DNA of 64,000 nt from positions 42,095 to 106,094 of the forward strand of contig CASDOZ010000008.1 in assembly GCA_949282265.1 (NCBI GenBank), in the 5' to 3' direction. The stretch comes from an uncultured Bacteroidales bacterium. GTDB lineage: Bacteria > Bacteroidota > Bacteroidia > Bacteroidales > Paludibacteraceae. Both the position numbers and the translations under genes were made by a program. This document shows positions 7,347-64,000 of this stretch, one piece after another. The notes beneath the pieces are model-generated. The model had not been told where the DNA came from and ran no database searches. It worked only from the letters and a program-made list of their open reading frames with translations. The stretch's first letter is position 1. Every line of letters begins with the position of its first letter.

Positions 7347-8390
7347 TCACAGAACCGTTACAGGCATATTTTCAGACAAAAAAGACTGCCGGGTCAATAT
7401 GACCGTATCATTTCCGGCAAGGCCAGAAACGATTTCCACACCGCCATCGGCCATTCCGCCCAGTTCGAGCGGACAACAGACTGCTTTACCCGAACGAGCC
7501 AGCCACACGTAATCGCCGCGACGGCTGTCGTGACATATTGCTTCCAAAGGCAACCAAAATAATGGCATATCATTCCCACCTGGCAGTGAAACGGAGACGT
7601 TTCCCCCCATGCCGCCCAACCAACGCCCTTGTGGGTTATCCACAACCGCCGTCAACACATACGAAAGGTTATTGCCTGCCGTACTGCCCGAAACATGGCA
7701 ACTTTCCGGTACAATGGGTTCATCGGGAGCACAATCGAAACGAATCCGGACAGCGTCCTGCAATCCTGTTCCAGATGCATTCAAAGCCATGGCAAGCAGC
7801 TCCGGAATATAAACTTCAGCACACAACTTGTCCAACCGGATAAATGAAACCGCCGGCTGCGATGGTTTCATATCCTGATAAGGTTGCACATATACATTTT
7901 GTACGTATCCATCAAAAGGAGCCACCAACTGCGTGTCAGCCAATTCATTCCGTGCCGTTTCATAGTCAGCCTGTGCAATCCTATATGCCGCCTCGGCTTT
8001 TTCATAAGTACTGCACGAGATATTCCCTGCTTCATACAACGCGCTTGTACGCCTGTATTCCTGTTCCGCTTGCTGCAATAAGGCTGCGGCACGCGTTTCC
8101 CGTACGATAAAGTCCCGGCTATCAATAGACAAGACAATATCCCCACGCCGGAAAAACTGCCCAGGCTCCAACTTGACACCCGTCAGCGTGCCACCAACAC
8201 GGAAAGACAAATCCGTTTCGTGATACGGCCGGACAATAAACGGGTATTCATGCGCATCCGCCTTTACTACCCGGACTACCGGTATCATGGCACGCACGGC
8301 CAAAGGCTCTACCGCGGATTCTGCCGACTGACGGCATGCGGGCAAAAACATTGCCGCCATCAGGTAACAACACACTTTTTTCATAACCAA
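7347..8390 (-). CDS. RND efflux periplasmic adaptor (membrane-fusion) lipoprotein
   Basis: This is a 347-residue adaptor. The N-terminus has a lipoprotein signal ending in a lipobox (FLPAC, Cys about residue 19); translation may start at the first or third codon (MVMKK). The lipoyl/barrel-sandwich part is seen in YPFIVRPYHETDLSFRVGG and QLVAPFDGYVQNVYV, separated by an alpha-hairpin with LLQQAEQEYRRTSALYEAG. Beta-barrel and membrane-proximal domains follow. It links the RND pump to the TolC channel and is the first gene of the efflux run. Confidence 0.93.
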   Translation of the reverse strand: MVMKKVCCYLMAAMFLPACRQSAESAVEPLAVRAMIPVVRVVKADAHEYPFIVRPYHETDLSFRVGGTLTGVKLEPGQFFRRGDIVLSIDSRDFIVRETRAAALLQQAEQEYRRTSALYEAGNISCSTYEKAEAAYRIAQADYETARNELADTQLVAPFDGYVQNVYVQPYQDMKPSQPAVSFIRLDKLCAEVYIPELLAMALNASGTGLQDAVRIRFDCAPDEPIVPESCHVSGSTAGNNLSYVLTAVVDNPQGRWLGGMGGNVSVSLPGGNDMPLFWLPLEAICHDSRRGDYVWLARSGKAVCCPLELGGMADGGVEIVSGLAGNDTVILTRQSFLSENMPVTVL

Positions 8391-8563
8391 CGCCTATTTA
8401 ACGCCGGCAAAAATAGGACAACTCCTATAGGAAAGTCCCGATTTTTCGGACAAAACGGAATCACAATCGACGAAACGGAAAAATCAGCGACTGAAAGCAT
8501 CCTGCATCCGACATACACACGGATTTTTACAAACATTCCGCAAATAAAACGACATTTTTTTTG

Positions 8564-8571
8564 TACTTTTG
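8564..8571 (+). promoter_or_regulatory. -7 box of the queD-queE promoter
   Basis: TACTTTTG matches the Bacteroidota TAnnTTTG element and lies 61 bp before the queD start. No clear -33 TTG is present 20 nt upstream. I looked for a preQ1 riboswitch in the short leader and saw none. Confidence 0.6.
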
Positions 8572-8632
8572 CGCGAGCATCGAGGTGACATTAGGTGCAA
8601 TTTGTTCCAATACAATTTATTCTGGTAAAAAC

Positions 8633-8965
8633 ATGTACACAGTGATCAAACGTATGGAGGTATCGGCGGCGCACAGCTTGCATCTTTCCTACCCCAGCAA
8701 ATGTGAAAATCTGCACGGTCACAACTGGATTATCACAGTATATTGCCGCTCGCGCGAATTAAACGCCGACGGCATGGTTGTCGATTTCAGCCATATCAAA
8801 CAAGCGGTGAAAGCCCGGCTTGACCACAAAAACCTGAATGAGGTAATACCCGGCAATCCCACTGCGGAAAATATTGCCCGCTGGGTCTGCGAACAAGTTC
8901 CGTACTGTTTCAAAGTAGAAGTCCAGGAGTCGGAAGGCAACACGGCCATTTATGAAAAAGATTAA
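8633..8965 (+). CDS. queD: 6-carboxytetrahydropterin synthase QueD
   Basis: This is a 110-residue member of the 6-pyruvoyl-tetrahydropterin synthase fold. It converts dihydroneopterin triphosphate to 6-carboxytetrahydropterin, an early step toward 7-deazaguanine and queuosine. Visible features are zinc ligands in AAHSLHL and HGHNW, the catalytic Cys in SKCENLHGH, and a C-terminal catalytic Glu in EVQESEGNT. I chose the Met at 8633 because the conserved first strand MYTVIKRMEVSAAH follows directly; the frame is open further upstream but through the promoter. Its end overlaps queE by 14 bp. Confidence 0.95.
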   Translation: MYTVIKRMEVSAAHSLHLSYPSKCENLHGHNWIITVYCRSRELNADGMVVDFSHIKQAVKARLDHKNLNEVIPGNPTAENIARWVCEQVPYCFKVEVQESEGNTAIYEKD

Positions 8966-9497
8966 CGAGATTTTCTACAGCCTGCAAGGCGAAGGTTTCC
9001 ATACAGGAACGCCTGCCGTGTTCGTGCGTTTCTCTGGCTGCAACCTGAAATGCCCGTTTTGTGACACACAACATGAGAACGGTATCCTAATGAGTGATGA
9101 GGAAATTCTGCACGAAGTGAATAAATATCCAGCACGAATGGTCATCCTGACCGGCGGCGAGCCTTCGCTCTGGATTGACGATGCGTTCATCGACATGTTG
9201 CACGCAACTAGGAAATACATCTGCATCGAAACCAATGGCACACGCCCTTTACCCGAAGGCATAGATTGGATAACCTGCTCGCCCAAAACCGGCAGCCAGT
9301 TGCGCCTGAAACGCATGGACGAGGTGAAAGTGGTTTATTTAGGGCAGGACATCGCGCCTTACGAACAGTTACCGGCCGCACATTTTTTCCTGCAGCCCTG
9401 TTCGTGTCAGAACACACAAGAAACGATAGCATGTGTATTGCAGCACCCACGCTGGCGGCTCAGTTTGCAAACACACAAACTTATTGATATCCCGTAA
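8952..9497 (+). CDS. queE: 7-carboxy-7-deazaguanine synthase QueE (radical SAM)
   Basis: This is a 181-residue radical S-adenosylmethionine enzyme that contracts 6-carboxytetrahydropterin to 7-carboxy-7-deazaguanine. The SAM 4Fe-4S motif is seen in SGCNLKCPFCD near residues 30-40. The N-terminal substrate segment is INEIFYSLQGEGFHTGTPAVF, and a GGEPSL motif lies in the SAM-binding region. It overlaps queD by 14 bp, so the two consecutive enzymes are co-translated. The later steps (queC, queF) are not in this window. Confidence 0.95.
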   Translation: MKKINEIFYSLQGEGFHTGTPAVFVRFSGCNLKCPFCDTQHENGILMSDEEILHEVNKYPARMVILTGGEPSLWIDDAFIDMLHATRKYICIETNGTRPLPEGIDWITCSPKTGSQLRLKRMDEVKVVYLGQDIAPYEQLPAAHFFLQPCSCQNTQETIACVLQHPRWRLSLQTHKLIDIP

Positions 9498-9721
9498 AAC
9501 ACACAATCCATTTTTCCTGTCTTTCCCGATAGTTGATTCCAAGCATTTGCCTGCCAATTCCAGTGTGATATTTCCAATGTTCTGCAACAGTTGATGGCTG
9601 CAGACTCTTATGCATTCATTTCCGCCACAATGTTTCATATTAGAAAAATGGCATATTTATTGCGAAATATGGTTACCACAAGCAAAAAAAGACAAGATTC
9701 CACCATACACATTATAAAATC

Positions 9722-10234
9722 ATGAAACTGATTATAAGCGATAAACCGCTGAACATAAACATTCAGCCAGAAGGAGATACCAGATATTTTGATTTATCGT
9801 CCCTGAAAATAGCCAATTGCATGGGTTGTTTCGGTTGTTGGACCAAAACACCGGGAAAATGCATTATCCGTGATGATGCTACGACTGTATATCCATGCAT
9901 TGCAAAAAGTGACAAAGTTCTCTATGTAAGTCATCTAAAATACGGAGGATACGACACCATAATGAAAACCATGCTGGAACGAGCCTTACCTATTCAACAA
10001 GCATTCATACGTATCCACAATGGTGAAACCCATCATGTACAACGTGCCGTTGTTCCCAAACAAGCTACCATCATAGCCTACGGCAATATTTCAGACGAAG
10101 AAATGGAGATATTCCGACAATTGGTTGCCCGTAATGCCAACAACATGATTTTTAGCAGCTATGAGATCATATTTACAACAGAATCCATGCTTGACAACAT
10201 GGTAAAAACAACTTTAGAAAAATGGGAAAAATAA
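9722..10234 (+). CDS. Flavodoxin-fold protein with CxGCxxCW motif
   Basis: This is a 170-residue soluble protein with the CMGCFGCWTKTPGKC cluster near residues 34-48, typical of iron-sulfur flavoprotein/NADPH-dependent FMN reductase relatives. It also has flavodoxin-like strands (DKVLYVSHLKYGGYDTIMKTMLERALP). The first strand-loop, which normally carries the phosphate-binding GSPR/GSxR loop, is instead ISDKPLN, so classical FMN phosphate binding looks lost. It overlaps the next gene by 13 bp. The physiological substrate is unknown. Confidence 0.75.
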   Translation: MKLIISDKPLNINIQPEGDTRYFDLSSLKIANCMGCFGCWTKTPGKCIIRDDATTVYPCIAKSDKVLYVSHLKYGGYDTIMKTMLERALPIQQAFIRIHNGETHHVQRAVVPKQATIIAYGNISDEEMEIFRQLVARNANNMIFSSYEIIFTTESMLDNMVKTTLEKWEK

Positions 10235-10833
10235 TGATATTGAATGGTAGCCCCAGGGCTCCAAAATCAAACTCAAAACGCTATGCGGAGATATTCAGTA
10301 AATACTGCAATTTTGAAACAGAATATTACAACATTACAAAGAAAAACCATTTGGAACTCTGCTCCAAAATGGAGGATTTTTCCGATGTACTGTTCGTTTT
10401 TCCACTTTATGTAGATTCGCTACCTGTCGGTTTTCTGAATTTCTTAAAGACATTGGAGACCAATCCACCCAAACGGAAACCTATAATATCCGTACTGATT
10501 AATTGCGGCTTTCTAGAATACCAGCAAAACGAAATAGCCATCCGGATGATACAGTTTTTTTGCCATCAGTACCATTACATCATAGGTTCAACCCTGATGC
10601 TCGGTGGCGGAGAAGCCTTTCTGGATACGCCTTTCAGATTTATTGCCATCAGAAATATACGCAAGCTGGCATTGTCCATAACATGCAAGGACTACAAAGT
10701 ATTCCAGACAACAATGCCGCTTCCCAAAAAACTATTTTTGATGGCTTCCACCAACTACTGGACACGTTATGGCCAGAAATATGGTATAACCAAAGAGCAA
10801 ATGCAAACAATGGAAATTGAAGGGGATAATTAA
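10222..10833 (+). CDS. NAD(P)H-dependent flavodoxin-family oxidoreductase
   Basis: This is a 203-residue protein. It begins with a clear FMN phosphate loop (MILNGSPRAPKSNSKRYAEIF). The second flavodoxin strand follows in DVLFVFPLYVDSLPVGFLNFL, then ISVLINCGFLE and a glycine-rich GGGEAF segment. It lacks the CxGCxxC cluster that the preceding protein has. The two are coupled (13-bp overlap) and look complementary. A second possible start is the Met at codon 5. The stop overlaps by 4 bp the end of the convergent HXXEE gene. Confidence 0.78.
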   Translation: MGKIMILNGSPRAPKSNSKRYAEIFSKYCNFETEYYNITKKNHLELCSKMEDFSDVLFVFPLYVDSLPVGFLNFLKTLETNPPKRKPIISVLINCGFLEYQQNEIAIRMIQFFCHQYHYIIGSTLMLGGGEAFLDTPFRFIAIRNIRKLALSITCKDYKVFQTTMPLPKKLFLMASTNYWTRYGQKYGITKEQMQTMEIEGDN

Positions 10834-11330
10834 CGGGGCATACGGCCAACAAGCCTATGCATCCCGATTAAGTTCATTCCGCCAAGCAATGTGCCCAGTA
10901 TGGTGTAGAGAAACAGCTCGTGTAGGGAAAAGAACAGATACGTCTCGTGTATCGCCCAAATGCAATAGGGCAGACATAATGCCGTAGATATGATGGCAGG
11001 AATATATCCGCGCCATACAACAAACTGGACGATATGGACGATAAGATGGATGCCGAATGCGGCCAGGCAGCAATACCATGCCGTCAGGTTCTCTGTCTGT
11101 AGGCTTACAATCGTGCAGACAGAAACAATTAGAAACTCTTCGGTGGCAATTACCACGAATTTCCGTGTGGTCATTTGCTCCATCTTTCGGATGATTCGTT
11201 CGGCTTTTGGGAAACGTCTGCGCATTGCGGTGCTGTTCTTTTTTACCCACGGGCATACCATGAGGATTTCTTCCAGTTCGTGAAGCAGGAAGAAAACAGG
11301 TAGGAGGAAAAATAAAAGCACCGTATCCAT
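10830..11330 (-). CDS. HXXEE-domain membrane protein
   Basis: This is a 166-residue hydrophobic protein. The family-defining motif HELEE is at residues 17-21, inside the first membrane segment (LLFFLLPVFFLLHELEEILM). About four further membrane helices carry His residues (IHLIVHIVQFVVW). The family (PF13787) has no established function. I start at the Met at 11330; the frame is open 45 codons further upstream, but that part overlaps the neighbouring acetyltransferase gene and is not membrane-like. The gap to that gene is only 5 bp, so they are probably co-transcribed. Confidence 0.75.
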   Translation of the reverse strand: MDTVLLFFLLPVFFLLHELEEILMVCPWVKKNSTAMRRRFPKAERIIRKMEQMTTRKFVVIATEEFLIVSVCTIVSLQTENLTAWYCCLAAFGIHLIVHIVQFVVWRGYIPAIISTALCLPYCIWAIHETYLFFSLHELFLYTILGTLLGGMNLIGMHRLVGRMPR

Positions 11331-11335
11331 TCTTC

Positions 11336-11800
11336 TTAGCGGTTGAGGGTTAAATTTTTCTGAAAATAAATCATGTCTTTCAGCACTTTCCCGTCTTCCA
11401 CAATCGGATGGTCGTAATTGCAGGTAAAGAAGTTGGCGACGGTATGCGAATAAGTAAAGCCGCAACTTTCGTAGAATGTGATTGTCTGTCTGCTTTCACC
11501 CGTGCCGACAAGCAGTGTGTGGCACACGTCGGCATAGCGCCGACAAAGGTATTCCACCATCTGTCGGCCGTACCCTTTCCGCTGGCGGGAGGATGCAACG
11601 GCCAGGTTTTTCAGTTCGCAGACTCCGTTTCCCTCGTCTGTCACAACGGCTGCGGCAATGGCTTCCGTTTCCTGCGTGTCGTACATGACGAACAGTTCTC
11701 CCCGCTCCAGATAGCGGTCAATCATCGACTCCTGCTCGTCGGCAAGGAGGAGCAGGGGGAGGAAACGTTTCTTGTCGGTGGTGATGAGTTGGATGTTCAT
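11336..11800 (-). CDS. GNAT-family N-acetyltransferase
   Basis: This is a 154-residue single-domain acetyltransferase. The acetyl-CoA pyrophosphate loop is seen as SSRQRKGYGRQMVEYL near residues 70-85. It is preceded by ELKNLAV (strand 4) and followed by the C-terminal FYESCGFTYSH motif. Such enzymes acetylate small amines or proteins; the substrate cannot be inferred. It lies 13 bp downstream of a larger gene with two more GNAT domains and 5 bp upstream of the HXXEE gene. Confidence 0.88.
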   Translation of the reverse strand: MNIQLITTDKKRFLPLLLLADEQESMIDRYLERGELFVMYDTQETEAIAAAVVTDEGNGVCELKNLAVASSRQRKGYGRQMVEYLCRRYADVCHTLLVGTGESRQTITFYESCGFTYSHTVANFFTCNYDHPIVEDGKVLKDMIYFQKNLTLNR

Positions 11801-54432: not shown

Positions 54433-54463
54433 TTGATTATTAAGTATTTTTCAGCTACTTTTG
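54433..54463 (+). promoter_or_regulatory. rel promoter
   Basis: TTG (54433-54435), 20 nt and TACTTTTG (54456-54463) match the consensus. The ATG at 54482 lies only 19 bp after the -7 box, so the leader is very short. Confidence 0.82.
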
Positions 54464-54481
54464 CCTGACAAAATACAGTTC

Positions 54482-56716
54482 ATGGAGGAAAAAGCAAAAA
54501 TATTGACGGAAGAAGAGGCTATCCAGCAAGAATTCCAAACGCTACAGAACGAATACAAACAGACAGCCCACAGGCAAAAAATCGAGATTATCACCAAAGC
54601 GTTCAATTTTGCCAATGCTGCCCACAAAGGCATACGCCGGCGTTCCGGAGAGCCTTACATCATGCATCCGCTGGCCGTGGCACGCATCGTTGTCGGGGAA
54701 ATCGGATTGGGCTCCACATCCATTTGTTCCGCCTTGCTACATGACGTTGTGGAAGACACGGATTATACAGTAGAGGACATAGAAAACTTGTTCGGTCCCA
54801 AAATAGCCAGCATCGTCGATGGGCTGACAAAAATATCCGGCGGCGTTTTCGGTGAACATGCTTCCGAACAAGCCGAGAATTTCCGGAAATTACTGCTGAC
54901 CATGTCGGAAGACATACGCGTAATCCTGATAAAAATCGCCGACAGGCTCCACAACATGCGCACGCTGGGTTCCATGCCAACAGCCAAACAGCTGAAAATT
55001 ATCGGGGAAACATTATATATATATGCACCGCTTGCCCACCGCCTGGGACTGTTCCCCATAAAGACCGAGCTTGAAAACCTGAGTTTCAAGTATGAGCACC
55101 CAGACACGTATGCCATGATAGAGCAGAAAATTGCTGCGGACAAAGCCGCGCGCATGGAGTTTTACGACCAGTTTTCCGCACCTATCAACAAAAAGCTGAC
55201 TGCCTTGGGCTACCAGTTCGTTCTGACGGCACGCATAAAATCCGTATATTCCATTTGGAAAAAAATGTCCACCCGCAACATCCCGTTCGAGGAAATATAC
55301 GATTTGCTGGCCCTCCGCATCATTTTCAAGCCAAAGCCGGACATCAGCGAGAAGGAACAATGCTGGCTGATTTATTCCGCCATTACGGAAATATACAAAC
55401 CGCATCCGGAACGAATCCGCGACTGGATCAGCACCCCGAAAGCCAACGGCTACGAGGCATTGCACGTTACCGTCATGGGACAGGATGGGCAATGGGTCGA
55501 AGTGCAAATCCGCAGCGAACGCATGCACGAAATTGCCGAAAAGGGACTGGCCGCCCATTGGAAATACAAAACAGGCGAGCATGACGAATCGGAACTGGAC
55601 AAATGGCTAAAAGCCATCAAAGAAATGCTGAAACATCCGGAACCGAATGCCATAGATTTCATGGACACGTTTAAACTGAACCTGTTCGCTTCGGAGATAT
55701 TCGTATTCACGCCCAAAGGCGAAATCAAAACTCTGCCACAGGGCGCCACCGCGCTCGATTTTGCCTTTATGTTACACTCCGATTTGGGTTTGCGATGCAT
55801 CGGCGCCAAGGTAAACCACAAATTGGTTCCATTAAACTACGTTCTGAAAGGTGGCGACCAGGTCGAAGTGCTGACCTCGAAAAAACAGACGCCTCAAAAA
55901 GAGTGGCTCAACTTTGTCACGACAGCACGTGCGCAAAGCCGGATCAAGGTATATTTCAGGCGGGAGGAACGATTGCGCATGCTGCAAGGCGAAAAAGCTC
56001 TGAAAATCGAGATGGGCAAACTCGAACTTCCGCTTGACACGGAAAACCTCAACAAGTTGCTGAGTTATTACAAAGTATTGTCCAAAAACGAGCTGATGCG
56101 GCAAATCGGATATGGCAACCTGAATTTGAGCGAATTGCCAAAAGCTCTGATAAAGCCAAAAAAACAAGAGAATTTCCTATGGCGTTACCTAAAACTGCCA
56201 TTCACATCGTCCAATAACAACAGCACAAGCACAACAGCAGCTCCTGCACTGCCCAAAAAGGAAAACAACATAATCCTGACCGAAGAAAACGCAGACAAGC
56301 AATATCAGCTCGCGCCCTGCTGTCGCCCCATCCCCGGCGACAATATCATGGGTTACCTGGATGATTCAGGCGTGGTTATCATACACAAACGCCAATGCCC
56401 CATTGCCACCAAACTGAAAACAAATTTCGGAAGCCGGATCGTAACTGCCGAATGGCAAACACACAAAGTATTTTCATTCGTAGAAACGCTGGAAGTCCGC
56501 GGAATTGATAAAATGGGGGTCATTATCGAGATATTGAAAATCATTTCCGGGAAATATTCCATGAACATAAAAGCGCTGAAAGTGGAATCAGAGGCCGGCA
56601 TTTTTACCGGGACTTTCGAAATATATGTACACGATACGGAAGAAATCAAGGAATTGTGCGAGAATATCCGCAAAATCAAAGAAGTAAATTCCGTGCAGCG
56701 CATAGAAAAACAATAA
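54482..56716 (+). CDS. Bifunctional (p)ppGpp synthetase/hydrolase, RelA/SpoT family
   Basis: This is a 744-residue alarmone enzyme. Residues ~50-190 form the HD hydrolase (HPLAVARIVV, ALLHDVVEDTDYT, IADRLHNMRTL), with the metal-binding His/Asp residues intact. Residues ~240-360 form the synthetase (ARIKSVYSIWKKM, EEIYDLLALRIIF, ANGYEALHVTVMG). A TGS domain (FVFTPKGEIKTLPQGATALDFA), a zinc-finger/helical region with CCRPIPGD, and a C-terminal ACT domain follow. Both active sites look functional, so it likely makes and degrades ppGpp. It is divergent from the ribosomal cluster. I start at the Met at 54482, after the promoter. Confidence 0.96.
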   Translation: MEEKAKILTEEEAIQQEFQTLQNEYKQTAHRQKIEIITKAFNFANAAHKGIRRRSGEPYIMHPLAVARIVVGEIGLGSTSICSALLHDVVEDTDYTVEDIENLFGPKIASIVDGLTKISGGVFGEHASEQAENFRKLLLTMSEDIRVILIKIADRLHNMRTLGSMPTAKQLKIIGETLYIYAPLAHRLGLFPIKTELENLSFKYEHPDTYAMIEQKIAADKAARMEFYDQFSAPINKKLTALGYQFVLTARIKSVYSIWKKMSTRNIPFEEIYDLLALRIIFKPKPDISEKEQCWLIYSAITEIYKPHPERIRDWISTPKANGYEALHVTVMGQDGQWVEVQIRSERMHEIAEKGLAAHWKYKTGEHDESELDKWLKAIKEMLKHPEPNAIDFMDTFKLNLFASEIFVFTPKGEIKTLPQGATALDFAFMLHSDLGLRCIGAKVNHKLVPLNYVLKGGDQVEVLTSKKQTPQKEWLNFVTTARAQSRIKVYFRREERLRMLQGEKALKIEMGKLELPLDTENLNKLLSYYKVLSKNELMRQIGYGNLNLSELPKALIKPKKQENFLWRYLKLPFTSSNNNSTSTTAAPALPKKENNIILTEENADKQYQLAPCCRPIPGDNIMGYLDDSGVVIIHKRQCPIATKLKTNFGSRIVTAEWQTHKVFSFVETLEVRGIDKMGVIIEILKIISGKYSMNIKALKVESEAGIFTGTFEIYVHDTEEIKELCENIRKIKEVNSVQRIEKQ

Positions 56717-56844: not shown

Positions 56845-56917
56845 GGTGCCATAGCTCAGTTGGTAGAGCAAAGGACTGAAAATCCTTGTGTCCCCGGTTC
56901 GATTCCTGGTGGCACCA
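56845..56917 (+). tRNA. tRNA-Phe (GAA)
   Basis: The cloverleaf has a 7-bp acceptor stem (GGTGCCA with TGGCACC), a D arm GCTC-AGTTGGTA-GAGC, an anticodon stem AAGGA/TCCTT with loop CTGAAAA (anticodon GAA), and T loop TTCGATT. The CCA end is not encoded (A then CAG). The T stem CCCGG/CCTGG has one C-U mismatch in the middle. Confidence 0.96.
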
Positions 56918-56924
56918 CAGAAGA

Positions 56925-56966
56925 CAAACAGCCAAATGATGAAAACATTTGGCTGTTTGTTTTTTA
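56925..56966 (+). terminator. tRNA-Phe terminator
   Basis: A perfect 14-bp stem (56925-56938 with 56946-56959) with a 7-nt loop is followed by TTTTTT. It closes the tRNA transcript 8 bp after its end, so the following hybrid gene must have its own promoter. Confidence 0.92.
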
Positions 56967-57048
56967 GGCGCGTTTGTTGTATGCACCCTGCAATTTACAA
57001 TTATACGGAAAGGGCCATTCTTGTTGCCTTTGTAAACATAAACATACC

Positions 57049-60000
57049 ATGGAGATAAAAGATCTTATCCAAAACATCGTAACAATTGAAAACGGCTTCA
57101 ACCACATTTTAGATGCAGCCCAACAAATCTTTTCTTATTACAACGAAAAAGATTGTATGAGAATTGCCCTACAATTATATGAATATCAAGCCTATCAAGT
57201 ATGTATGCTTTCAGTTACATTATTGGGGTATATCTCGGTAAAAGACCATAGCGCGTTAGATTTTCTAAAAAACAAGGTAAGTCATGATGACAATTGGCGA
57301 GTTCAAGAAATGTTGGCAAAATCATTTGACTATTTTTGCCAGAAACAAGGCTATGAACAATCTTTGCCAATTATTAATGAATGGCTGGAAAGCAACAATC
57401 CCAATGTAGTACGCGCCGTAACAGAAGGGTTAAGAATATGGATATCAAGACCATATTTCAAACAACATCCAGACGAAGCTATAAGATTGCTCAGCAAACA
57501 TAAATCAAATCCAAGTGAATATGTAAGGAAATCAGTGGGCAACGCATTGCGGGACATCAGCAAGAAACATCCCCAATTGATACTTAAAGAACTATCCTCC
57601 GGGAAAATAAAACGCGGTTCTGCCGAGTGGGATGCGCATATCGTGAAAATCAAAAAACTAAAAGCCGAGCTGTCGAAAATACGCGGTGAGGCTGCGGAAA
57701 CACAATCGGTATGGACACGCATGTCGAACGCGCTGAACAAATGGGGCGGATTGGTAACATCCGCCATCGCTTCCATTACCGGCCTTTCGCTTGCGCAGAA
57801 CCAAATGCGGAAACTGGCCTTTGCGCAAGAGGAAAGCGCGGCCAACCTGAAAGCATTGACCGGCCTGGACGATGCCAGCATACAATGGCTGACCGAGCAA
57901 GCCAGCCAGCTGTCAACCAACATGCAGGAAAACGGCGTCCGCATACGCCAATCGAGCACGGAGATTTTGGAAGCCTACATGCTCGTGGGGTCGGCCAAAC
58001 CTGACTTGCTGCAAAACAAGGAGGCCTTGAACGAAGTAACCAAGGAAGCACTCAAACTCGCCACGGCTGCCAAAATGGACATGAAAGATGCCGTCGATGC
58101 CGTTACCCTGTCCATGAACCAATACGGGGCTGCTGCCGACGAAGCATCGCGCTACACCAACGTAATGGCTGCCGGCTCCAAATACGGAGCTGCAAACGTG
58201 CAGTCCGTAACCACTGCCGTCATCAAATCCGGAGTTGCCGCATCGTCCGCAAATGTATCCATAGAGCAGCTTGTCGGCTCCATAGAAACACTTGCCGAAA
58301 AAGGTATCAAGGACGAAATCGCCGGTACCGGGCTGAAGAAGTTCTTCCTTACCTTGCAAACAGGATCCGATGACACGAACCCAAAGGTTGTTGGCTTGCA
58401 ACAAGCATTGCAAAACCTGGCCGCCAAACAAATGGACGCTACTGAAATCAAGAAAATGTTCGGCGAGGAAGGATATAACGTGGCGCAAGTACTCATTTCC
58501 GAAGCTGACGCAGTGAAATATTACACCGATGCAGTTACAGCCAGCACTGTGGCCGACGAACAGGCTGCCATCAACTCGGACACCAGGCAGGCCAAACTGG
58601 ACCAGATGAAGAACCGGATGCAGGAAGTGGCCATACAGATTGTGAACGACCTCGACCCAGCCGTCATACGCCTTGGAAACACGTTCACCAACCTGCTGAA
58701 AATACTGCCGCCTATCATAAACTTCATTAAGAACTATGGCGTGGTTATCGTTTCAACCACTGCCTCCATAGCCGCATACGTGGCTATCCTGAAAGCACAA
58801 AAACTGGCAACGGATGGAGTAAGCATGGCTACCAAAAGACTGCTCGTGCATATCAGAAACCTGTATAGAACTCTTATGGCCAATCCATGGGTAGCTTTGG
58901 CTGCCGGAATAGGTGCTGTTGTCGGTTTTATGATAAAACTTGCAAAATCGACAAAAGAGGCTACTACCGCTGAACAGGAACGCCAGCGCATAATGAACCA
59001 AGTAAACAACTCACAGGATGCAGAAATAACCAAATTGGCCGCATTGCAGAAAATCCTGGATGATTCCACAAAAAGCTACGAGGAACGGAACGCCGCACTG
59101 AAAGAAATACAGAAAATAGTACCTGAATACCAAGCATCGCTCACCAAAGAGGGCAAACTCATAAACAACAACACCGATGCACTCACGCGCTTCGTGGAAA
59201 TGAAAAAGCTATCCGCTCAATTAGACGTAGCCACATCCAGGAAAGCAGAAATTGATGACGAATTGGACACATTCAAAGAAGACAAAAAAGACAAATTGCA
59301 TGCCGTGGAAGTACAAAGGAGTTTTGCTGAAACCAAAGCATACAAGAAAGAAAAAAGTACTGAAAACTGGGCTGACTATTTACCTTTGTTCTACAGAGGA
59401 GCAGGCCGCAAGCTTGTCCGGCTCGAAAATGAAAGTAAGAAATACGAACAAATCATAACTGATATTTCTGAAAGCTTGGTCAAATTGCAAGTAGCACAAT
59501 CTAAAAGCACCACCACCAAAACCACCGGCGGAGGCGGTGGCGGTGGCGGAGAGAACGACAAGCCATCGTTGGCCGACAAATACAAGGCCGATGTGGAAAA
59601 ACTGAAAGCGGCCTTGCAAGAACAGTTGAATGCCGAAAAAGAGGCCTACCTGGCCGGAGAACGCAGCAGGGAAGACTATGAAGCCAACATACAATACCTG
59701 GCCGAGGAAAGCCTGAAAAAGCAGCTCGAACTTGCCAAGCAATACAAGCAGGAAACCGCCGGACTCGAGAGCGAGGTGCTGGACAATGCCATCAGCCACA
59801 TGGAAAAGAAAGCCAGGGAAGCGGAAGCCTTGGCAAAAGACGTTGAATCAGCATTGCAAGCATCGATCAACGAAGACGAAGCCGATTCGGACAAATCGGC
59901 CGAAGCACTGAAAGAACGCCCGAAAGTGCTGAAAGAATACGGCCTCTGGACAGATGCCGACGAACTGAACGCAAGCCTGCAATTGCTGGAGGAATATTAC

Positions 60001-60891
60001 GCATCCGGCGTCCTGCTCGAAAGTGAATACCAACAAGCCCGGCAGGAGCTTATCGACGCGGCCAACCAACAAGAGGTAGAAAAGGAAAAAGCCAAACGCC
60101 AGCAGATACAAGAACTCGCTTTCAGCAGCCTGAACAACATACTGTCGGCCATGGACAGCTACGTGAACGCACAGGCCGACGCCGAAGTGGCCAAAACAGA
60201 GGCCAAGTACGACCAAATGATAGAGGCGGCCGGAAACAACACAAAGCAGGTGGAACGCCTCGAACAACAAAAAGAGGACGAGGTGAACCGGATCAAGGCG
60301 GAAGCAGCCGACAAATCGTTCGGCATACAAATAGCCTTGGCAATAGCGCAGGGAGCTGCCAGTATTATCCGATGCTTTTCTGACCTTGGCCCGATAGGGG
60401 GCGCCATTGCGGCCATACCTGTCGCAGCCGTTACTGCTTTGCAAATCGCCACAATCACACAACAACGGCAGGCTGCCAAGGCCAACTACTGGACAGGCGG
60501 ATTCACGCCTGACGGCAGATGGGACGAACCGCAAGGCACTGTGCACTCCGGCGAGTTCGTGGCAAACCGCTTTGCCGTGAAAAACCCTGCCGTCAGGCCG
60601 GTACTCGACATGATAGACACCGCACAACGCAACAACACCATCAGCACCCTGACCGGCAGCGACGTGAGCGCGGCACTGGGAACAGGCGGGACTGCCATCA
60701 TGGCACGCCAGGCAGACCCAAACAACCAATACCTCGCGGCAGCGGCAGGCGCGCTCGGAAAAGCAACCGAACGGCTTTCAAAACGCCTGGACGACGGCAT
60801 AGGAGCGGTGGTGAACATACAAGGAAAGGCCGGTCTGGACGAACAATGGAAAAAATGGGAAAAACTGAACAATAACAAGAAAGGATCATGA
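57049..60891 (+). CDS. Hybrid: AlkD-like HEAT-repeat N-terminus joined to phage tail tape-measure protein
   Basis: This is an uninterrupted 1280-codon frame. Residues 1-~184 are HEAT-repeat, like DNA alkylation repair (AlkD-type) proteins (NPNVVRAVTEGLRIWISRPY, SEYVRKSVGNALRDISKK). From about residue 187 (base ~57607) it turns into a tape-measure protein without its normal start: coiled coils, two hydrophobic segments (GVVIVSTTASIAAYVAIL; ANPWVALAAGIGAVVGFMI), a Gly8 linker near 830, and the typical VHSGEFVANRFAVKNPAVRP end. The first part is AT-rich, the second GC-rich with phage-like codon use. I start at the Met at 57049; earlier codons are open but lack similarity. Expression and function are unknown; it could be a deletion scar, a prophage relic or an assembly join. 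Confidence 0.8.
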   Translation: MEIKDLIQNIVTIENGFNHILDAAQQIFSYYNEKDCMRIALQLYEYQAYQVCMLSVTLLGYISVKDHSALDFLKNKVSHDDNWRVQEMLAKSFDYFCQKQGYEQSLPIINEWLESNNPNVVRAVTEGLRIWISRPYFKQHPDEAIRLLSKHKSNPSEYVRKSVGNALRDISKKHPQLILKELSSGKIKRGSAEWDAHIVKIKKLKAELSKIRGEAAETQSVWTRMSNALNKWGGLVTSAIASITGLSLAQNQMRKLAFAQEESAANLKALTGLDDASIQWLTEQASQLSTNMQENGVRIRQSSTEILEAYMLVGSAKPDLLQNKEALNEVTKEALKLATAAKMDMKDAVDAVTLSMNQYGAAADEASRYTNVMAAGSKYGAANVQSVTTAVIKSGVAASSANVSIEQLVGSIETLAEKGIKDEIAGTGLKKFFLTLQTGSDDTNPKVVGLQQALQNLAAKQMDATEIKKMFGEEGYNVAQVLISEADAVKYYTDAVTASTVADEQAAINSDTRQAKLDQMKNRMQEVAIQIVNDLDPAVIRLGNTFTNLLKILPPIINFIKNYGVVIVSTTASIAAYVAILKAQKLATDGVSMATKRLLVHIRNLYRTLMANPWVALAAGIGAVVGFMIKLAKSTKEATTAEQERQRIMNQVNNSQDAEITKLAALQKILDDSTKSYEERNAALKEIQKIVPEYQASLTKEGKLINNNTDALTRFVEMKKLSAQLDVATSRKAEIDDELDTFKEDKKDKLHAVEVQRSFAETKAYKKEKSTENWADYLPLFYRGAGRKLVRLENESKKYEQIITDISESLVKLQVAQSKSTTTKTTGGGGGGGGENDKPSLADKYKADVEKLKAALQEQLNAEKEAYLAGERSREDYEANIQYLAEESLKKQLELAKQYKQETAGLESEVLDNAISHMEKKAREAEALAKDVESALQASINEDEADSDKSAEALKERPKVLKEYGLWTDADELNASLQLLEEYYASGVLLESEYQQARQELIDAANQQEVEKEKAKRQQIQELAFSSLNNILSAMDSYVNAQADAEVAKTEAKYDQMIEAAGNNTKQVERLEQQKEDEVNRIKAEAADKSFGIQIALAIAQGAASIIRCFSDLGPIGGAIAAIPVAAVTALQIATITQQRQAAKANYWTGGFTPDGRWDEPQGTVHSGEFVANRFAVKNPAVRPVLDMIDTAQRNNTISTLTGSDVSAALGTGGTAIMARQADPNNQYLAAAAGALGKATERLSKRLDDGIGAVVNIQGKAGLDEQWKKWEKLNNNKKGS
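57600..57612. other. Junction between HEAT-repeat and tape-measure coding sequence
   Basis: The AlkD-like family similarity ends near KELSS (codons 180-184), and tape-measure sequence starts near KRGSAEW (codons 188-194). Base composition changes from AT-rich to GC-rich at the same place. No obvious insertion-sequence end or long direct repeat is visible at the join. Confidence 0.65.
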
Positions 60892-62720
60892 GGCAACTGT
60901 ATTTGGACGGTACGCTCGTCCACCTGACCAAAGAACAAAACATATCGCTGAACAAGGAAAACAACTACTTTTCCGATGCAAGCGAATACACCTACGACAT
61001 CACATTGCCATTGGCCGACCCTGTGAACCTCGCCTTTTTCGGGCCGCTGAACCGGCACGAGCACAGCGTGGACAAGACAAGGACATTTGAGGCCTGGCTC
61101 TATGCAAACGGACGCCTTTTCATAGAAGGCACGGCACGCATAACCGGCATAGACCAAGACGAAGTAAAGCTGCAAATAACAGCCGGGCGTTCCGACTTTT
61201 TCACGGAAGACCTTTCCCGCTACATTGACGAAATGCGCATAGACGCACGGGAAATAGAAGCCATATATTTCCCTATCTTCAACGAAACAAGTGGCGTAAA
61301 ATGCAACGACGTGGCCATTCAGGTAGTATCAAACGAAAAATACCAGCTTGTAACACCTAACACGCTATACACGCACAGCGCACCATCGTTTTACCTGAAA
61401 AACCTCGTACATATCATCTTTGACCGGCACCTGGATTATTATATTGCTGAAAATGTCTTTGAAAAAGACCGATACGGGATGACTTCCCCTATGCAATCAC
61501 TTCTTAAAAAAATTATAGTTTGCAACGCAAGCTATGCCCCCGATGGGAACCTGGACTTCGTGCTGCCGCACTGGACAATTGCGGAACTGCTCGAGGAAAT
61601 CACAAACCTGACCGGCCTGCGATTCATGTTCTCCTATGAAAACAACCGCAAAACAGTCCGTATCGTGCACTCAAAAGACATTTACGGCCCGGACGATTAC
61701 GACCATGTGGAAATTGAACAACTCGTGGACGAATTTGAAATAGACATATCGCAAGACCCGTCCGAAGACCTGGGAAGCAAGAACCTGGAATATGAAATAG
61801 ACAACGACACTATCAAGAAATTTGAGCAAGTGGACCAAAGCATACTCGATGCAGCCGAATGGAAAACAGCCACGGATTTTGATGACGTTCTTGAACAGTT
61901 CGCTGCCATGGGGAGCGACCGTTATACAAAACGCTATTCAACTATTGTGGAAACTCCTGCCGGCAGGCAATATGTGGCGCAACAAAAAACGTCGGAAGGG
62001 TATAATGTTTACGAGATAAACCGCTTGCGTGCATTGGTGCGGAATACGGAAGCAGATACGGTTTCACCTAAAATAGCACCTGTCGGATATGCACAGGCTA
62101 CTTTTTCTGTGATTTATGAAGGAAATCCTGGGCGTGTTGATCCTTACGTCGGCATCGGCGTAACGGAATCTTGCCTCATACCTTCCATGCCGGGCACAGA
62201 CCGTGAACCTTCAACCAGGAGCGACGGGCTTATTAACATCTATGATTCCATCACGAACGATGAAAGTTCGGAAACAGATCCGCCCGACAAACTCTATATT
62301 GCCATTGAAGGCAACGAATATATAAACATGGTTATAAATGAAAATAACTATGGAATTACACCCGGAAGCAGTTTCTTCTATGAGGACTTTTTTGTCCCGT
62401 ACCTGTTTTCCAATACGGTACGTCTGGAATCAATCCTGAATAGTCTGACGTATGGATGGAGGCTTACTTATTGCGGAACTGAAATGATACCTCCGGAAAA
62501 AAACAACAGTTACACCATCGGTAGCATGCTTGCAGAAGTACCGCGCATAGACACGTCCGTCACCTACAAAAAGCAATTTATCATGCACTCGGTCCCGGAC
62601 ATCCAGGCGCGCTTCCTGATACGCGGGAAACTGTATGCCTGCACAAAGCTGACTGTGGAACTGACGGACGACGGGCTTGTGCCGCTCATGGAAGGGGAGT
62701 TCCTGGAAATAGTCGGATAA
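60888..62720 (+). CDS. Phage tail-associated protein, function unknown
   Basis: This is a 610-residue protein that starts in the ATGA overlap with the tape-measure stop, so the two are translationally coupled. It is soluble and rich in acidic and aromatic residues, with segments such as NYFSDASEYTYDITLPLADP, GTARITGIDQDEVKLQITAG and TNLTGLRFMFSYENNRKTVR. Position directly after the tape measure, in phages of this type, usually belongs to a distal-tail or baseplate-hub protein. I do not recognise a specific family; the call rests on context. Confidence 0.65.
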   Translation: MRQLYLDGTLVHLTKEQNISLNKENNYFSDASEYTYDITLPLADPVNLAFFGPLNRHEHSVDKTRTFEAWLYANGRLFIEGTARITGIDQDEVKLQITAGRSDFFTEDLSRYIDEMRIDAREIEAIYFPIFNETSGVKCNDVAIQVVSNEKYQLVTPNTLYTHSAPSFYLKNLVHIIFDRHLDYYIAENVFEKDRYGMTSPMQSLLKKIIVCNASYAPDGNLDFVLPHWTIAELLEEITNLTGLRFMFSYENNRKTVRIVHSKDIYGPDDYDHVEIEQLVDEFEIDISQDPSEDLGSKNLEYEIDNDTIKKFEQVDQSILDAAEWKTATDFDDVLEQFAAMGSDRYTKRYSTIVETPAGRQYVAQQKTSEGYNVYEINRLRALVRNTEADTVSPKIAPVGYAQATFSVIYEGNPGRVDPYVGIGVTESCLIPSMPGTDREPSTRSDGLINIYDSITNDESSETDPPDKLYIAIEGNEYINMVINENNYGITPGSSFFYEDFFVPYLFSNTVRLESILNSLTYGWRLTYCGTEMIPPEKNNSYTIGSMLAEVPRIDTSVTYKKQFIMHSVPDIQARFLIRGKLYACTKLTVELTDDGLVPLMEGEFLEIVG

Positions 62721-62783: not shown

Positions 62784-62833
62784 CAGACAGAACAACTCAT
62801 ATTATATTTTTAAAACATATCAAACACATTATC

Positions 62834-63385
62834 ATGAAAAAATTTTTATTCTTATCCTTTCTTCTACCCATCTGCCTATACGCTTTTTCAGAACCTTTGC
62901 AACAGGTGAAAGTAATTCAATTTGAAAACCTTTCAGAAGCAGATGTGTATAATGCTGCAAAAATGTTTGTGGTAGATAATTTCGTTTCGCCTAATGATGT
63001 CATTCAATTGGACGATCAAACCCAATACATCCTTGTTGTAAAGAGCAGGTTTGATTTTTCAACTACAAAATTTGGTTCAGGATATTCTTATTTGAATGGT
63101 TTTATTCGTTTTACACTAAAAATAGAAGTGCGCGACGGGCGGTACCGTGTTTCCATATACGATTTTATCCACCATTCCAACTCATTGCAGTATAATGATT
63201 TTTGGTCTGTCGGACTTATTAATGCGGACGGAATCGCAAACCAATCAAAATGCAAAGACCCACGAATCAAAAAATCACAAGAAGATTTGATAAAGGCATG
63301 TAACGATTTTTCCTACCTTTTGCTCACACGTATTGAAAATTATATTAATCAGTACTCCCACCCGGAATCTACTGATGAATGGTGA
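62834..63385 (+). CDS. Secreted protein with DUF4468-like (TBP-like fold) domain
   Basis: This is a 183-residue protein with a signal peptide (MKKFLFLSFLLPICLYAFS). Residues ~35-120 resemble the DUF4468 family common in Bacteroidales (EADVYNAAKMFVVDNF, GSGYSYLNGFIRFTLKIEV, RDGRYRVSIYDFIHH). No enzyme motif is visible. It is markedly more AT-rich than the tail genes before it and has its own promoter box, so it looks like cargo in the element or a resident chromosomal gene beyond it. Confidence 0.65.
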   Translation: MKKFLFLSFLLPICLYAFSEPLQQVKVIQFENLSEADVYNAAKMFVVDNFVSPNDVIQLDDQTQYILVVKSRFDFSTTKFGSGYSYLNGFIRFTLKIEVRDGRYRVSIYDFIHHSNSLQYNDFWSVGLINADGIANQSKCKDPRIKKSQEDLIKACNDFSYLLLTRIENYINQYSHPESTDEW

Positions 63386-63457
63386 TTCATACTCCATCTA
63401 TCTTTTGTCAGGGAATAGCGGAAATTTTCCAACTATTCCTTTTTTTTCCCTTTCCCC

Positions 63458-63488
63458 TTGCACGTTCCAAAAACTTTTCTCATCTTTG
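63458..63488 (+). promoter_or_regulatory. Near-consensus promoter of the structured leader
   Basis: TTG (63458-63460), a 20-nt spacer and CATCTTTG (63481-63488) match the consensus except for C in place of the first T of TAnnTTTG. Transcription would begin just before the 18-bp inverted repeat arm. Confidence 0.55.
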
Positions 63489-63492
63489 CAAC

Positions 63493-63631
63493 GCAAACAA
63501 ATTAACAAGGCGCACATGCCGCCGTCGTGAACGGCTTTTTTTGTGCCATTACATAAAAACTATTATAAGAATATCGTACCACGGACCGCCGGAATGGGAA
63601 ACCACCGGGAACACCTTGTTAAGTTGTTTGC
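63493..63631. repeat. 18-bp inverted repeat with 103-bp spacer
   Basis: GCAAACAAATTAACAAGG (63493-63510) is the inverse complement of CCTTGTTAAGTTGTTTGC (63614-63631) with one mismatch. If both arms are transcribed they can close the whole leader into one large structure. Confidence 0.75.
63521..63542 (+). terminator. Early terminator-like hairpin in the leader
   Basis: GCCGT (63521-63525) pairs with ACGGC (63531-63535), followed by seven T residues (63536-63542). Flanking GGCGCAC and GTGCC can extend it as an alternative fold. It would stop most transcripts ~140 bp before the next gene unless readthrough occurs. Confidence 0.6.
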
Positions 63632-63676
63632 ACCCGTCGGTACGATTTTTCTTTTTAATGCAAAAACTTAACAATT

Positions 63677-63997
63677 ATGGAAACCACAAGGATCCAGACG
63701 CGCTCCGGGCGCATCAGCCCCGAGCAGCTCGCTTGCAGGCTCGAGCAGCTTGCGCAGAAAATCCGCCAGGCCTTGATGCTGCCCGACCAGGAAGCCTACG
63801 AGCTGCTGAAAAAGAAGGTATCCGACACGCTGGACGCAATCAATGAAAAATGCACACGGTGCGCCAACCTGTCCGTATCTTTTTACAAAAATGCAATCTA
63901 CCTGAGTTCGCTCGACAAAAACGGAAACAAGAGGGATGCTTTCGCCTACATCCATTTCACCATCGTGCGCAAAGAATGGAAAGGAGGTGAGCTATGA
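63677..63997 (+). CDS. Small hypothetical protein of the mobile element
   Basis: This is a 106-residue protein with amphipathic helices (SPEQLACRLEQLAQKIRQAL, DQEAYELLKKKVSDTLDAIN) and a Cys pair (CTRCANLSVSF). I do not recognise its family. Its stop overlaps the ATG of a further gene at 63994 (ATGA), preceded by a strong AAAGGAGGTGA ribosome-binding site. This points to a compact, coupled cluster such as phage or conjugative-element genes. An overlapping longer frame at 63379-63846 has less support. Confidence 0.65.
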   Translation: METTRIQTRSGRISPEQLACRLEQLAQKIRQALMLPDQEAYELLKKKVSDTLDAINEKCTRCANLSVSFYKNAIYLSSLDKNGNKRDAFAYIHFTIVRKEWKGGEL

Positions 63998-64000
63998 AAA
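63994..64000 (+). CDS. Start of a coupled downstream gene (cut by window end)
   Basis: ATG at 63994 overlaps the stop of the preceding gene and follows AAAGGAGGTGA by three bases, but only two full codons are in the window. Nothing can be said about its product. Confidence 0.4.

Follow-up and report, generated by a model that had tools for sequence, protein, structure and literature searches.

An uncultured Bacteroidales genome was found to carry one open reading frame in which a HEAT-repeat sequence of the AlkD2 type, 184 residues in length, runs directly into the tape-measure protein (TMP) of a phage tail. The origin of this join is most likely ordinary, either a scar left by a deletion at the border of a prophage or an error of assembly. 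We consider the former fairly probable, namely that the outer end of a phage-derived element was deleted into alkD2 at the border of an old prophage.

The hybrid frame and its two parts

The hybrid frame begins with an ATG at 57049 and ends with a stop at 60891 on the plus strand of the window, the whole stretch of 64,000 nucleotides that was analysed; it comprises 1280 codons with no interruption. The preliminary description had reported a single frame of AlkD-like and tape-measure sequence, and family matches to both parts confirmed this. When the first 195 codons were used as the query, residues 1-184 (alkD2, 57049-57600, plus strand) matched the Pfam families DNA_alkylation (PF08713, E = 2.9e-11) and HEAT_2 (E = 5.5e-11). 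By sequence, the nearest solved structures were the S. mutans AlkD2 chains 6m9m, 4x8q and 3l9t (E = 2.6e-52 to 6.3e-51). AlkC gave a far weaker match (E = 6e-7) and no other PDB chain was found at E values up to 1, a pattern that relates this part to AlkD2 rather than to AlkC or AlkD. No match near the cut-offs was found for it in NCBIfam, and PADLOC gave no match. Mullins et al. (2015, PMC4433238) report that AlkD2 lacks alkylpurine excision and binds DNA only weakly; the earlier wording "DNA-binding-type module" was therefore an overstatement.

Residues 10-182 of the hybrid aligned to residues 13-184 of S. mutans AlkD2 (6m9m, E = 2.6e-52). Unlike that protein, the hybrid lacks the C-terminal 22 residues that are encoded by the alkD2 gene of its sister genome, G001, and has glycine in place of the invariant Trp185. 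Integrity was assessed against 79 intact homologues, which included that of G001 and excluded three short frames from among 82 loci, the genome relatives being the best 80 of 233. All 79 retained Trp185; the hybrid has neither this residue nor a complete last helix. Arg52 (kept in 78/79) and Thr132 (79/79) were also altered in the hybrid and unaltered in G001, but these changes are weak evidence of decay because seven of the 79 other homologues also had at least two changes at near-invariant columns. The dN/dS ratio of the alkD2 part against G001 was 0.125; this value was not accepted as proving selection, because most of the divergence it measures is older than the join.

The join was located by comparison with G001. 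The last base in common with the G001 alkD2 gene is 57599; the next two bases mismatch and 57602-57605 match again, four matches that may be due to chance. On this alignment the join is at 57599/57600, or as far right as 57605 if the two mismatches are point changes (57599-57605, plus strand), so that the earlier estimate of approximately 57605 was correct to within 6 bases. Codon 185 is GGG. Beyond the join, the stretches of the two continuations that were compared had no words of 8-12 bases in common. Some TMP profiles began up to approximately 20 residues before the join (residues 162-188 of the full 1280-residue frame), and one tblastn TMP alignment began at 57553; these leftward extensions were taken as run-on. 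We rejected the view that the N-terminal part belongs to TMPs as an ordinary domain, since this part is a stand-alone gene in G001 and gave no TMP family match when searched alone.

The TMP part (57601-60891, plus strand) matched PhageMin_Tail (PF10145, E = 3.5e-21, 76.4 bits against a cut-off of 33.2), TIGR01760 (E = 4.1e-25, 88.5 bits against a cut-off of 28.8) and the TMP family phrog_28 (8.6e-35). The core domain is thus present, and the AlkD2 domain stands where a TMP would have its own start and N terminus. Among the 108 phage records with a match, the nearest TMPs came from two phage contigs of the human gut, MT836146 (53.0% over 35% of the query) and MT835542 (43.1% over 54%). The absence of a TMP start, which had been noted previously, was borne out: approximately 40 residues were missing when compared to MT836146 and to the protein of genome G058, and the shortfall was larger when compared to MT835542 and G038. 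The 1096 residues after the join plus these 40 give about 1140, the size of the G058 protein, and the TMP is otherwise full length. The hybrid resembles TP901-type TMPs (TIGR01760, PF10145, phrog_28) in its core domain, its length after the join and the gene that follows, but differs from them in that AlkD2 replaces their own start and first 40 or so residues.

The following gene encodes a 610-aa tail-module protein (60888-62720, plus strand), and its start codon overlaps the stop codon of the TMP gene in the sequence ATGA. Phage contig MT839407 has this overlap too, and there the counterpart of the 610-aa protein has 23% identity over its whole length; the two tail genes therefore adjoin in a conserved order, as in a prophage remnant. 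Next is a gene for a DUF4468 protein of the phage-associated family phrog_4002 (62828-63385, plus strand). Window base 64000 is the end of the contig, so that the phage stretch is its terminal 6.4 kb. There was no integrase or attR within the window, and no relatives were confirmed for the TMP alone among viral contigs and genome contigs, or for the 610-aa protein among viral contigs. When 517 kb of the 2.47-Mb source genome (the window and contig ends) was searched with 94 proteins taken from five stretches of phage or prophage, there were no structural matches beyond the TMP and the 610-aa gene; the remaining matches (L049, L054) were exonuclease-, primase- and oxidoreductase-like by eye. 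Family phrog_2, which we take to be the large terminase, gave only matches of 18-20 bits in the source genome (G000) and G001, having been found in 11/14 genomes as a control. The protein preceding the TMP in MT836146 had no match in either genome, in a search that had no positive control.

The alkD2 locus and tRNA-Pro genes in the sister genome

G001 (CALUNA010000004.1) is a metagenome-assembled Bacteroidales genome and the only other member of the genus among 61 genomes. The gene order spoT, tRNA-Phe, alkD2 is common to both. In the window, tRNA-Phe (gaa) was identified by ARAGORN and Rfam at 56845-56918 (plus strand), as part of the left flank that G001 also has. After it come a terminator-like repeat, with a hairpin seen by eye, and the alkD2 upstream region (56919-57048, plus strand), in which 118 of 131 alignment columns are identical. 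The preliminary description had pointed to the tRNA-Phe neighbourhood of related genomes as the place to look for an intact AlkD-type gene, and G001 has one at the same locus. It is a stand-alone gene of 206 aa, identical to the AlkD2 part of the hybrid at 176 of 184 residues (96%), and its sequence past the point of divergence encodes Trp185 and the last helix. The TMP had no match in G001.

Beside alkD2 in G001 are 57 bases with a 96% match to the tRNA-Pro(GGG) gene of the source genome, over its 3' end and terminator. This fragment, which looks like an attR, lies tail to tail with alkD2; beyond it the sequence is unrelated up to the end of the contig. The end of contig C23 of the source genome carries the whole tRNA-Pro(GGG) gene with the same core, and then sequence that differs from that of G001. 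The last 99 bases of C23 are also the end of contig C1, in which tRNA-Pro(CGG) precedes that end. In G001, a third tRNA-Pro, whose anticodon was read by eye as TGG, has similar sequence that leads to a 120-aa ORF; this ORF looks, also by eye, like a shortened tyrosine integrase. Ends of integrative elements were seen after three tRNA-Pro genes (GGG, CGG and TGG) in the genus (L053 end, L059 end, L082:1-114, L130:7200-7900 and L131 end). In other genera, neither tRNA-Phe nor spoT was present at eight short loci (approximately 1.5 kb on each side of tRNA-Pro(GGG)), so that the ancestral gene order is taken from G001 alone.

Synonymous divergence between the two genomes was lower in alkD2 (16 changes at 108 sites, dS 0.16) than in spoT (54461-56713; 251.5 changes at 496 sites, dS 0.84), the only comparison gene, as five ribosomal-region genes of the window fall outside the 20 kb of G001 sequence that was compared. 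This difference indicates that alkD2 was probably exchanged between the species after their split; the low dS, together with the AT-rich composition of the gene (36% GC), suggests horizontal exchange.

The change in base composition that had been described at the join is real, but its cause is the AT-rich alkD2 gene (36.1% GC in the source genome, 36.0% in G001). The phage part had 47.9% GC compared to 47.2% for the examined rest of the source genome, and in tetranucleotide profile 73% of the 67 chunks of 6 kb lay further from the genome mean than it did. The step was therefore rejected as a mark of foreign phage DNA.

Origin of the join

In the proposed sequence of events, a phage-derived integrative element would have occupied the 3' end of tRNA-Pro(GGG), the neighbouring gene, its outer end lying next to alkD2 at the 3' end of that gene. 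A subsequent deletion would have removed attR, the genes that normally precede a TMP, the TMP start and the last 22 codons of alkD2, with endpoints inside the TMP gene near codon 40 and inside alkD2 after codon 184. The in-frame landing would have been luck, at one chance in three, and the hybrid would be transcribed from the alkD2 promoter. The earlier argument that an open frame of this length indicates a recent event or selection is weak as regards selection. The hybrid is probably without function: loss of the last helix and invariant Trp of AlkD2 argues against a role in repair, and the absence from the locus of the genes preceding a TMP argues against a role in tail assembly.

A deletion scar is supported by the intact alkD2 gene, with no TMP match, at the same locus in G001; by the absence of the alkD2 tail elsewhere in the source assembly; and by the loss of a tryptophan retained in every homologue from a frame whose TMP is complete apart from its start and still has the ATGA overlap. 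The att-like 57 bases in G001, together with the tRNA-Pro(GGG) and core at the end of C23, would place the element at tRNA-Pro(GGG). A prophage either deleted into or inserted in a chromosomal AlkD-type gene had been suggested previously; the intact G001 gene and the att-like tRNA-Pro sequence favour deletion, and the G001 arrangement indicates an element beside alkD2 rather than insertion within it. Against the deletion scar, the link between C23 and the contig of the hybrid was not assembled, the stretch is the terminal 6.4 kb of a contig from a genome that is 89% complete, the integrase and attR are absent from the window, and the ancestral gene order is taken from a single genome, G001.

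Assembly error, in which real alkD2 and real phage DNA were falsely joined near 57600, is unlikely but deserves serious consideration. The position of the phage stretch at the end of a draft contig and the incompleteness of the genome are compatible with it, as are the failure, in weak tests, to find the expected preceding phage genes in the source genome and the presence of the join in just one of 393 genomes of the order. In contrast, the join lies inside a contig of what appears to be a k=99 graph: exactly 99 bases are common to the two ends in each of eleven pairs of contig ends (only 35 in one further pair, and C28 has N at both ends), from which branches of such a graph seem to have ended contigs, and no competing alkD2 end was found. 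The two continuations share no 8-12-base word, and tetranucleotide composition is genome-like on both sides. A repeat at the far right (approximately 63440-63780) was located three times in G001 and at two further sites in the source genome; since this terminal repeat has copies in both species, the right side looks like DNA that is resident in the genus. The same repeat, following a short phage stretch, would also suit another rearrangement (inversion, transposition or recombination between elements) that did not involve the tRNA-Pro(GGG) element, as would the apparent exchange of alkD2 between species. We regard this as improbable, because the att-like fragment beside the G001 gene is a simpler source and no insertion-sequence end was seen at the join on reading by eye.

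A selected, working fusion, with AlkD2 as the N terminus of a TMP or of a domesticated tail-derived protein, is very improbable. In its favour are 3.8 kb of open frame and one viral contig, L225 (IMGVR_UViG_2737472014_000006), which has a portal protein and in which a complete alkD2 gene (7989-8606) lies approximately 100 bases before a complete TMP gene (8707-11532). Loss of the last helix and Trp185 from the hybrid and the presence of host genes only before it on the contig argue against such a fusion. A search for proteins with both domains had been proposed; no second AlkD2-TMP fusion was found in the 393 genomes of the order (45 with an AlkD2 match), the 82 further loci, the 50,697 phage records (which had no AlkD2 match) or the viral contigs, and no literature on such a fusion was found, as judged by titles. 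The hybrid was the only frame above 1000 residues in the 393 genomes; the next longest, 842 residues in G076, was at a match of E = 9.7e-4. At the 82 loci, 78 frames measured 191-214 residues from the match start, three were short and one had 487.

The viral contigs contained two confirmed AlkD2 loci, and a separate search for AlkD2 alone gave no confirmed relative. When five TMPs were compared with 90 alkD2 loci (G001 counted twice), the sole match was L225, through its own TMP. On its other side the L225 alkD2 gene is flanked by small genes, the nearest with a family being phrog_709, of unknown function, which by position would be a tail chaperone. L225 is one case, and one of adjacency rather than fusion. 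The separate alkD2 gene just before its TMP, set beside the fused pair in the source genome, keeps alive the idea that AlkD2 proteins are functionally tied to phage tails, as a HEAT-repeat domain in the tail ruler that enters the cell with incoming DNA or acts on it; we judge this extremely doubtful.

A deletion scar, the preferred explanation, has a partial parallel. Decayed ("grounded") prophages truncate host genes at their borders, an example being Qin and ydfJ in E. coli (PMC6379469), where, as here, the host gene is shortened at the prophage border. The difference is that two frames have become one ORF here, whereas truncation and not fusion is described for Qin and ydfJ. A prophage border can join a host gene to a phage gene in one long ORF that would be annotated as a two-domain protein, which is a warning against taking such frames for designed fusions. 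If real and expressed, the hybrid would be a test case for the retention of accidental host-phage fusions.

Minor features of the region

One of the 82 loci had a different in-frame continuation: at L102:3-1466 (the same sequence as L194), from another Bacteroidetes genome, a full alkD2 gene runs in frame into what is, by eye, an OmpA-like protein, giving the frame of 487 residues.

The terminal repeat contains a c4-2-like antisense RNA (63573-63648, plus strand), which scored below the Rfam gathering score (33.2 bits, E = 2.4e-5, against 41). Two of five other copies of the repeat that were tested also scored as c4-2 (33.4 and 31.7 bits), and a literature search on C4 RNA found nothing related. 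A 106-aa ORF (63677-63997, plus strand) was present in two of 37 genomes searched, the source genome and, in part, G001. By eye, a loop is complementary to the 5' part as well as to the start-codon region of this ORF, and the loop and its complementary segments co-vary between copies of the repeat.
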